Shown piece after piece: positions 23,761-27,360 of a DNA stretch of 64,000 bases. Origin of the DNA: Pseudonocardia sp. CNS-139 (GTDB lineage: Bacteria > Actinomycetota > Actinomycetes > Mycobacteriales > Pseudonocardiaceae); NCBI GenBank assembly GCA_001942415.1, contig MKJX01000066.1, positions 1 to 64,000 of the forward strand. The letters run 5' to 3'. A program made the position numbers and the translations under genes. The stretch's first letter is position 1. Each line of letters opens with the position of its first letter. The notes beneath the pieces are model-generated. The model made no database searches, was not told the origin of the DNA, and worked only from the letters and a program-made list of their open reading frames with translations.

Positions 23761-25363
23761 TCAGGCGCCGGCCGCGCAGGTGGTGTCGGTCGCCGGAAGC
23801 GTGAGGTCCACGAGGTAGCGCGTGGTCGTCTCGTCGGCGCACGGGTTGCCGCCCTGCAGCGCGATCGTGTGCCCGTCGTTCTCGACGGTCAGCAGCCGCG
23901 CCCCCATCTGCTGGGCCAGCGAGACGCCGTCCTCGTACGGGGTGGCCGGGTCGCCGGTGGACGACACGACCAGCACCGTCGGCACGCCCTCGGCCTGCAC
24001 CGGACCCGGCGCCGACGTGGGCGGCACCGGCCAGAACGAGCACAGCTCCAGCACGTCCGACGGGCCGAAGCCGGCGTCGTAGAACGGCGCGATCCGGATC
24101 GACTCCTCGCTGATCCGGCGCGCGACCGCCCGGTCGGTGATCCGGTCGGAGTCGGCGCAGTTGATCACCTGGAAGGCTTCGAGCAGGTTGCTGTAGCTGC
24201 CGTCGTCGGGGTTGCGCTCGTAGTACGAGTCGGCCAGCCGCAGCAGGTTGCTGCCGTCGCCCTGCGTCACCTGGGCCAGCCCCTCCGCCAGGAACGGCCA
24301 CAGCGCCTCGGCGTACATCGCGGTGATCACGCCGTACATGGCGTCGTTGTAGCCCAGCGTGCGGTCCGGGCCGGCCGGGATCGGGGTCTCGACGAGCGGG
24401 CGCAGCAGCTGCTGCAGGCGCGCGGACGCGGCGGCCGGGTCGGCGCCCAGCGGGCAGTCCGGCTGCGCGGCGCACGCGGCGGCGAAGTTGTCGAACGCCC
24501 GCTGGAAGCCGCGCGACTGGGTGAGCCGCGACGCGACGGGGTCCTGCGCCGGGTCGATCGCGCGTCCAGCACGAGCGCGCGCACGGCCTGCGGGAACTGC
24601 TCGGCGAACTCCGCCCCGATCGCCGTGCCGTACGAGTAGCCGACGTAGGTGAGCTTCTCGTCGCCGACGGCCTGGTGCGCGATCCGCAGGTCGCGGGCCA
24701 CGTCGCGGGTGCCGACGTTGGCGAGCACGTCGAGCCCGACCCGGTCGGCGCAGCGCTGGGCGAACTCGCGGTACTCCGCCTCGGTCTGCGCGACGCCGGC
24801 CGGCGACGTGTCGAGGTCGAGGTCGACGCGGTCCGCGTCCACCTCGGCGGTGGTCGAGCAGTCGATCGTCGCTCCGAGACGCCGACGCCGCGCGGGTCGA
24901 ACCCGATCAGGTCGAACCGCCGTGCCACCTCGCCCTCGCCGATCAGCCCGGCGAGTGCCGGCAGGAAGCTCACGCCCGAGCCGCCGGGGCCGCCCGGGTC
25001 GACGAACAGCGACCCGATGCGCGCGGCCGGGTCGAGCGCCTTCTGCCGCAGCATCGCGATGCGCGCGACCGCGCCGTCGGGCTGCGCGTAGTCGAGCGGC
25101 ACATCGAGGTACGCGCAGTCGTAGCGCGGGTCCGCGAACGCCTCCTGCTCCGCGGCCGAGCGGGCGAACCCGCCGCAGGAGCCCCACTGCAGGTCCTGGT
25201 CGGCGAACCGGGCGAGCGCAGCGTCCTCGACGAGGGACGTGTCACCGGCCGGGCCGTCCGCCACCGCGGCGGGCGCGGCGACGGTGACGAGGGCGAGGGC
25301 GAGGGCGAGGCCGGCGAGCAGGGCGAGCGAGCCGGCGACGAGCGCGCGGATGCGGGACGGCAC
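23761..25363 (-). CDS. Secreted alpha/beta-hydrolase, tripeptidyl-aminopeptidase (TAP) type
   Basis: About 535 residues. A signal peptide (SRIRALVAGSLALLAGLALA) ends near VAAPAAVADG. The oxyanion region is FVDPGGPGGSG, nucleophile Ser is in VGYSYGTAIGAEFAEQFP, acid in STGDPATPYEDG and His in ENDGHTIALQG, the latter two in a TAP-like C-terminal domain. Such enzymes remove N-terminal tripeptides or esters outside the cell. GTG 25363 follows GGAAGGA. Frameshifts near 24877 and 24560 split the middle. It lies between phoH and the FAD oxidase. Confidence 0.88.
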
Positions 25364-25442: not shown

Positions 25443-27360
25443 CTAACGGCGGTTGCGGCGGCGCTGGTCCTGCGGCGGCCCGTTGCGCGGCGCGGCCGCC
25501 CGCAGCTTGGGCCGCTCGCTCTCGGCGTCCCAGCGGGCGTAGGCGTCGACGATGTCGGCCACCAGCCGGTGCCGGACGACGTCGGTGCTGGCCAGCTGCG
25601 CGAAGTGCACGTCGTCGACGTCGCCGAGGATGTCGCGCACCACCATGAGCCCGGAGCGGACGCCGCCCGGCAGGTCGACCTGCGTGACGTCACCGGTGAC
25701 GACGATCTTCGAGCCGAACCCGAGCCGGGTGAGGAACATCTTCATCTGCTCGGGGGTGGTGTTCTGCGCCTCGTCGAGAATGATGAAGGCGTCGTTGAGG
25801 GTGTTGTGCGTCAGCAGGTGGTCCTCGGTGACGTACAGCGAGTCCTCCGCCGCCACCTGGATGCACACCGTCTCCGCCCGGCCCGCGGGCTCGATGCTGT
25901 CGACGAACCGCATCGGACGGCCCCCGCCGCCGGCCGCGAGGTACTCGTCCCGCTTGCGCTCCAGCCGGAAGGGCTCGATCCCCTCGGGCAGCAGCAGGTC
26001 GACCACGTGGGCGTCCCGGACGTACCCGACCCCACCCAACGACCGGACGAGCTCGACCACGCCGTCCCGCAGGTGCGGAGAGAGGGTCGAGTACTCGACG
26101 CGGCAGGTGCGGCCGGCCTGCCGGACCGGCTCGCCGTGGGCGTCGAGCATTCCCTGCAGGAGGGCGAGCCGCACCTCGGCGGTGTTGCGGAGGTACGCCT
26201 CCGGCACGCAGGGGGCGTCCACCCGCTGCCGGACCGCCACAGCGGTCGGCGAGGCGGCGGAGGCGAGTTCCTGGCCTCGGGTCGCATGCGCAGGTGTCGT
26301 CGCACCGTCGCCCAGCAGGAGCCCGAGGGCGTACGGGTCCATCGGCACGGGCTGTCCGGGGTGCTGCACCGGCGCGGTGAGCATCGGCAGCTCGAAGCGC
26401 CGGGCGTGGGCGGCCCGCAGGTCGCCGATCATCTCCTGCGTCTCGAGCACCCGCCACGGCTGGTCGCGCCGGCGGTCCGATGCGGTGCGCACGGTCCAGA
26501 GGTGCTCACCACAGGCGAGGGTCGACGCCCCGTCCTGCGCCGTGACGCGGTAGACGTCCTTCTCGCCCTGCGGGTAGACGCCCAGCACGGGCGTCGGCTC
26601 GCCGTCCGACCCGACGACGAGGTCGCCGACCTCCAGGTCGCGATCGGCGGAGACCCTCCGGCGTGAGGACCTTCGTGGTGAGCGGCTGCGCCCGGCCGCG
26701 CATGTACGCCAGCGGCGCGACCTCGATCGTCCCCGCCGCGATCAGCTTCGGGATCGACTCCGGGTCGATCATGTCGTGCAGCGCGTCGTACAGCGGGCGC
26801 AGGTACGGGTCGATCTTCTCGTAGAGCGTGCCGGGCAGGTAGCCGAGCCGCTCCCCCGCCTCGACCGCCGGGCGCGTGAGGATGATCCGGTTGACCGTCT
26901 TGGCCTGCAGCGCCTGCACGGCCTTGGCCATGGCGAGGTACGTCTTGCCGGTACCGGCCGGGCCGATGCCGAAGACGATCGTGTGCGCGTCGATCGCGTC
27001 GACGTAGCGCTTCTGGTTGAGCGTCTTGGGACGGATCGTCTTGCCGCGCCGGGACAGGATGTCGAGCGAGAGCACCTCGGCCGGCGACTCGCCGATGCGG
27101 GCGCGCTCGTCGGCGTCGCCGTCGCCGAGCATCTCGACGGTGCGGCGCACCGCGTCGGTGGAGACGTGCTGCCCGCGCTCGGCCAGCATGATCAGCTCGG
27201 TGAACACCCGCTCGGCGAACGCGACGTCGGCCGGGGTGCCGGTGAGGGTGAGCTCGTTGCCGCGGACGTGGACGTCGGCGTCGAGGAGGTCCTCGGCAGC
27301 GCGCAGGCTCTCGTCGCGCGAACCCAGCAGCGCGAGCAGAGCGGCGTCCGGAACGGCCAT
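25443..27360 (-). CDS. phoH: PhoH-like ATPase interrupted by an intein
   Basis: The extein is a PhoH-like P-loop ATPase of about 343 residues. N-extein: [40 protein letters not shown] and Walker [15 protein letters not shown]-extein: [20 protein letters not shown] (Walker B) and [20 protein letters not shown]. The intein (25803-26691) lies between YMRGR and TLNDAF, just before Walker B, so ATPase function should need splicing. One frameshift near 26650 is inside the intein. ATG 27360 is the best start. PhoH is usually tied to ybeY; RNA metabolism under stress is the presumed role. Confidence 0.92.
25803..26691 (-). other. Intein in PhoH, class 3 (Ala1, W-C-T triad) with degenerate LAGLIDADG endonuclease
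   Basis: About 296 residues. It starts with Ala ([13 protein letters not shown]), not Cys or Ser, and ends TEDHLLTHN followed by extein Thr. Block B is [12 protein letters not shown] with His and Trp; block F carries Cys in [14 protein letters not shown]; the Thr of LLTHN completes the Trp-Cys-Thr set that defines class 3 splicing, in which the block F Cys attacks first. [12 protein letters not shown] and [13 protein letters not shown] resemble the two LAGLIDADG helices but are close together and the second lacks the acidic pattern, so the endonuclease is probably decayed. One frameshift near 26650 lies in block A. Confidence 0.85.

Follow-up and report, generated by a model that had tools for sequence, protein, structure and literature searches.

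The phoH gene of the window, by which we mean the whole 64,000-nucleotide stretch of DNA analysed here, very probably carries a LAGLIDADG-type class 3 intein at RGR^TLN. In this reading, which we hold with high confidence, the intein has homed in the past, its endonuclease is decaying, splicing is still under selection, and the change of frame inside the insert is an error. The insert is a typical representative of an intein group already known, rather than a novel type of element. Its interest lies in the site: among related bacteria, alleles that lack the class 3 intein, have it in full or have it in decayed form all occur at one conserved ATPase position. Because these alleles share one site, the decay of the endonuclease with the splicing residues kept can be traced many times. 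The comparison also links the PhoH inteins of bacteria with a large family lying in the Walker A loops of phage ATPases.

The insert in phoH and its change of frame

The gene lies on the reverse strand, and PF02562 matches it in two pieces, one on either side of an insert of 889 bases with exact boundaries (Table 1). The insert separates YMRGR from TLNDAF, ahead of Walker B, which follows a few residues past the +1 Thr. A preliminary description of this DNA had proposed an interruption of about 296 residues between these same peptides, and this is borne out. The other features that it named (Ala at the start, His-Asn at the end before a Thr, and the HLW, VCIQV and LLTHN blocks) are all present at their sites. 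A chance resemblance was considered and is excluded by the PF02562 matches on both sides of the insert, together with homologues at the same point. The draft genome holding the window is 7.1 Mb long, in 250 contigs and 78.5% complete; no further intein of the PhoH-site family was found in it.

Table 1. Parts of the interrupted phoH gene, with positions in the window.
Feature	Position	Strand	Match or basis
phoH N-extein, assumed start MAVPD to YMRGR	26692..27360	-	PF02562 match 2-117/205, E 2.5e-51
Walker A GPAGTGKT, inside phoH N-extein	26941-26964	-	
Whole intein, 889 bases, about 296 codons, one frame change inside	25803..26691	-	homologues and intein-free alleles of the genus
Block A start [13 protein letters not shown], Ala1, frame shared with N-extein	26653..26691	-	
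Place of frame change: 13 bases against 15 (5 codons) in genus relatives	26640..26652	-	
Intein remainder DLEVGD...LLTHN, other frame, no stop before C-extein	25803-26639	-	
Block B CGEHLWTV: His (B:10), class 3 Trp (B:12)	26490..26513	-	
First LAGLIDADG motif LGLLLGDG, catalytic Asp retained	26304..26327	-	
Second LAGLIDADG motif [10 protein letters not shown], His replaces catalytic Asp	26133..26162	-	
Block F ETVCIQV, class 3 Cys (F:4)	25854..25874	-	
Block G LLTHN: class 3 Thr (G:5), penultimate His, terminal Asn	25803..25817	-	
phoH C-extein, +1 Thr ([14 protein letters not shown], Walker B) to stop	25443..25802	-	PF02562 about 103-204/205

The frame is broken in block A as sequenced, and the window as given could therefore not yield an intact precursor. 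We aligned the open frames of three relatives to the 64-kb window, taking all those of at least 150 codons (some perhaps not genes) from 12 of 20 fetched loci (L213-L220 left out), and found frame changes in 29 of the 37 matched window genes, with 46 changes in 14,653 aligned codons. Controls chosen by the same length rule and treated by the same method gave 2 of 13 rows in a P. nigra contig, where overlapping loci show one gene twice, 1 of 30 across 160 kb of genome G024 and none of 27 across 40 kb of genome G029. Since frame changes run through the genes of the window and are rare in the controls, the one in block A most probably reflects an error of assembly. The preliminary description had assumed an artefact at this place, and assembly noise is indeed the best reading. 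An assembly rich in indels would also fit the low completeness of the genome. One of the frame-changed window genes is hydrolase-like (23776-25216).

The frame is open in all seven genus relatives read and broken in the window only, which speaks for a real change, that is, for a dead phoH in this strain with the intein a pseudogene inside it. Against this stand the abundance of frame changes in the other window genes and the state of the sequence downstream of the break. There, dN/dS relative to L017, the P. nigra gene, is low in the splicing parts (0.13 and 0.18), and the C-extein has a dN of 0.027 and a dS of 0.23. We rank the pseudogene low because frame changes pervade the window genes, and consider it improbable.

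Class 3 residues and the proposed splicing route

Class 3 inteins are marked by Trp at B:12, Cys at F:4 and Thr at G:5 (PMC5050341), and the same positions appear under other names in PMC7891396. We compiled 130 distinct PhoH-site inteins, from L015-L021, L025-L124, L225-L270 and the window. Every one of the 130 has the Trp, the Cys, the Thr, both His and the Asn, in a sample drawn by two scans seeded with short conserved peptides, one of which contains block B CGEHLW and so biases the sample towards rows having this Trp and this Cys. Residue 1 is Ala in 114 and Ser in 16, where THN and Ala or Ser at position 1 belonged to the first reading pattern, fitted by all 107 loci of the first set. The window has Ala, and hence no required nucleophile at this position. 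It also has the block B His, the penultimate His, the terminal Asn and a Thr at +1; the latter is found in 146 of 147 tabulated loci, the remaining one having Ser. The Trp-Cys-Thr set of the preliminary description is therefore present, with one point of precision: its Thr is that of THN, in block G:5, and not the +1 Thr (PMC5050341).

A profile of the splicing part, built from ten relatives (five PhoH-site and five viral, the window excluded), was searched against the PDB. It matched the class 3 structures of MchDnaB1 (6rix, 1.8e-14; 6riy, 7.2e-14) and MsmDnaB1 (6bs8, 8.8e-14) over nearly the full length, about the whole splicing part. Its best matches were to gp41-1, in an engineered form (6riz, 1.2e-19) and in the natural type (6qaz, 5.2e-16), and other class 1 inteins scored far worse (0.002 or worse for Mxe GyrA). 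The class has to be set by residues and not by overall likeness, because gp41-1, of class 1 according to PMC7664689, outscores the class 3 DnaB1 inteins. Gp41-1 resembles the PhoH-site family in ending with THN, but has Phe and Asp at the places of the class 3 Trp and Cys, and its viral homologues, such as L275, have Cys at position 1, unlike PhoH-site inteins. The DnaB1 inteins of both structures share with the window the Trp-Cys-Thr set and the HN end, although their host is DnaB. Msm DnaBi1 also has Ala1, but it is without an endonuclease, and its residue at the TxxH position of block B is Asp instead of the Cys of the window (PMC6195587).

By its sequence, then, the PhoH insert is a class 3 intein, as first proposed, and the class 3 residues of the window and of its relatives support this. 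It is a new member of an already known type, since class 3 inteins have already been published for mycobacterial PhoH. Those of M. fortuitum and M. xenopi are described as class 3 in PMC6195587, and PMC7360933 reports an intein in M. smegmatis PhoH; these share the host protein with the window and are compared here by description only. In the same order, four loci of another family (L231, L232, L233 and L238) carry an intein at MRGR^TLN. A count from 2020 gave 1701 class 3 inteins, 82.5% of them with endonuclease motifs (PMC7891396). No paper on a PhoH intein of Pseudonocardia came up among the open-licence papers searched. The higher scores of gp41-1 over DnaB1 inteins are also relevant to the question of a separate origin of class 3 from class 1.

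By analogy with the experimentally tested class 3 inteins of PMC5222942 and PMC7664689, the block F Cys (F:4) would first accept the N-extein by attacking the Arg-Ala bond and then hand it on to the +1 Thr. Cyclisation of the terminal Asn, assisted by His, would free the intein, and the joining of the exteins would reunite the half of PhoH that has Walker A with the half that has Walker B. In the past, the endonuclease would have moved the intein into empty phoH alleles; in the lineage of the window it would be decaying, with selection still acting on splicing. Splicing by the block F Cys, and a PhoH that depends on it, are reasonable on this analogy. Unspliced PhoH would be unlikely to be a working ATPase because the insert parts Walker A from Walker B. 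We give next to no credence to a class 2 route, in which the +1 Thr would attack the N-junction directly without the block F Cys: Ala1 alone does not separate the two classes, which takes a mutation of the F:4 Cys, but the Trp-Cys-Thr set is invariant at the PhoH site and three class 3 mini-inteins neither spliced nor cleaved after substitution of that Cys (PMC5222942).

Decay of the endonuclease

The window intein lacks alignment positions 131-134, 151-182, 193-198 and 269-289 relative to L017, i.e. 63 of 360. Its second motif reads LDAHG where seven relatives of the genus have LD[TS]DG, and its catalytic positions are 57 residues apart, against 99 in L017. The two motifs thus do not both hold Asp, as the second has His, and the domain is shorter than full length. 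The Pfam profile LAGLIDADG_3 gives the window 16.0-18.0 bits, below the cut-off of 22.5, and four relatives 32.5-37.4. No loss is visible by Hom_end, with 19.1 bits in the window against 14.0-19.5 in four relatives, all below the cut-off.

The rates of change differ along the intein. Between the window and L017, dN is 0.221 and dS 0.67 in the endonuclease, compared with 0.057 and 0.45 in the N-terminal splicing part and 0.042 and 0.24 in the C-terminal one. Relative-rate counts with L021 as outgroup were 32 to 5 for the endonuclease (p = 7.4e-06) and 9 to 3 for the splicing parts (p = 0.15). When we varied sister and outgroup over 14 overlapping choices, the endonuclease was significant in 13 and the splicing part in none. 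The direct contrast between them had a Fisher p under 0.05 in 3 of these 14 non-independent choices, the lowest being 0.0345.

Deletions, a lost catalytic Asp and faster amino-acid change support a window endonuclease that has decayed, as judged from these alignments. The preliminary description had suspected as much from the closeness of the motifs and the degenerate second one, and the suspicion is strengthened by these three lines of evidence. It is highly improbable that the endonuclease is still active and the intein still mobile in this lineage. The first LAGLIDADG motif keeps its Asp and the Hom_end score falls inside the range of the four relatives, but the second catalytic Asp has become His, the 63 aligned positions are gone, and LAGLIDADG_3 stays under a cut-off that four relatives clear.

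Decay of this kind is found elsewhere at the same site. Of the 130 inteins, ten are shortened, to 257-337 aa (292 in the window when the break is set aside), and Trp, Cys and THN are kept in all ten. Both catalytic Asp are present in 115 of the 120 full-length inteins and in only one of the shortened ones, the window being among the ten (Fisher p = 8.8e-10, kinship ignored). The gaps fall within or across positions 147-182 in 10/10 and 269-292 in 8/10. The fewest changes of length state that the trees allow are nine on the splicing-part tree and ten on the extein tree of 74 rows. Wear of the endonuclease with the splicing parts kept is a common fate of the PhoH-site intein.

The frequent survival of the intein past the loss of its endonuclease might also mean that the host uses splicing as a switch on PhoH. 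The block B Cys should sit beside the bond that the Cys of block F attacks. Under oxidative stress, a disulfide joining these two Cys could restrain splicing, on the model of Cys48-Cys118 in Msm DnaBi1 (PMC6195587). We regard such a switch as an unlikely, speculative extension of the main reading. The Thr position of TxxH in block B is Cys in 113 of the 130 inteins, Ser in 16 and Thr in one, with a scan peptide that favours Cys. We rejected the block B Cys as a fixed trait of the family, given Ser or Thr in 17/130.

Distribution, horizontal movement and phage relatives

Across 62 genomes of Pseudonocardia, the PhoH match is split in 8, unsplit in 53 and missing in one. Among the unsplit matches, 51 of 53 span positions 2-204 and those of G035 and G053 are partial; G049 has only a second, weaker-scoring PhoH copy. 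Intein-free alleles, which the preliminary description proposed to seek in related species, exist within the genus: the 12 unsplit phoH genes that we read all lack the intein. In each of the seven other split genes, a single uninterrupted frame encodes an intein of 359-360 aa at the insertion point found in the window, and the identity of these inteins to that of the window is 65-77%.

More widely, we sampled genome loci (the best 80 of 293) and viral loci (the best 80 of 128). An intein is present at the PhoH site in 148 of the 157 actinobacterial loci read (L015-L021, L025-L124 and L225-L274, several being one gene under two identifiers). The reading pattern was fitted by 147 of these, 107/107 in the first set and 40/50 in the second. 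The other ten comprise L242, with an intein at the same site but outside the 130; L248, which is the window; L249, L250, L271 and L273, which are inteins in other hosts; and L251, L253, L272 and L274, which were not counted. In a draw from the class, 29 of 394 genomes match at 1e-40 or better, only part of them having been read for the site; in a family-wide search, 151 of 249 match at 1e-3, a figure that counts other inteins too.

The trees of inteins and exteins disagree in places. The loci L019 and L020 have ordinary Pseudonocardia exteins, placed beside intein-free species (support 96), but their inteins do not join the six other Pseudonocardia inteins. They group instead with L267, a locus from a different genus in the family (99/96), and on a broader scale with families f11, f13 and f30 (94/91). 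A single Pseudonocardia intein clade is rejected (p-AU 0.00094), in a test picked after the FastTree intein tree was known. Since the inteins of L019 and L020 fall outside the other Pseudonocardia inteins and their exteins do not, the intein has crossed genus lines. It has probably crossed family lines too. For the window, the extein tree gives L017 as sister (support 96). Its intein does not group with that of L017 in the intein trees, pairing with L261 in the FastTree tree and with L258 in the other, and a grouping of window and L017 is not rejected (p-AU 0.27).

The PhoH-site inteins fall on one side of a branch of the FastTree tree and the 64 viral sequences on the other, with support 100, in a set of 73 PhoH-site relatives (most Streptomyces rows omitted) and 64 distinct viral rows that holds no bacterial RecG-like intein. 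The viral Walker A class 3 inteins, although outside the PhoH-site clade, show 30-44% identity over the whole intein (best 80 of 128 viral loci). In all 64 distinct viral relatives the intein terminates in THN, and the +1 residue is Thr or Ser. Unlike the window intein, which follows RGR, 62 of the 64 begin after the Gly-Lys or Ala-Lys of a Walker A loop, with starts re-set by script to the nearest such Lys-Ala. By tblastn, 517 phage records match. Mycobacteriophage class 3 inteins and Walker A terminase inteins are described in PMC5050341.

We examined ten viral loci with their exteins, and eight are PhoH-like by reading (L133, L136, L139, L141, L146, L156, L169 and L201). Each of these eight proteins has a class 3 intein in Walker A and its own RGR-like site unbroken. 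RecG-like actinobacterial proteins (L250 and L271) also have, by reading, a related class 3 intein in Walker A. Phage GX15bay (L355, MK557849.1, 1020-3842) was considered as a further insertion into PhoH and rejected, as its PhoH-labelled gene is unlike PhoH outside the intein (by reading); the label may derive from the likeness of the intein to PhoH inteins. In Lactococcus phage LW81 (L354, KY554777.1, 2393-4501), an intein follows the Walker A Lys and, by reading, mixes the features of classes 1 and 3: Cys1 occurs together with THN and a Cys in block F, and block B lacks the Trp.
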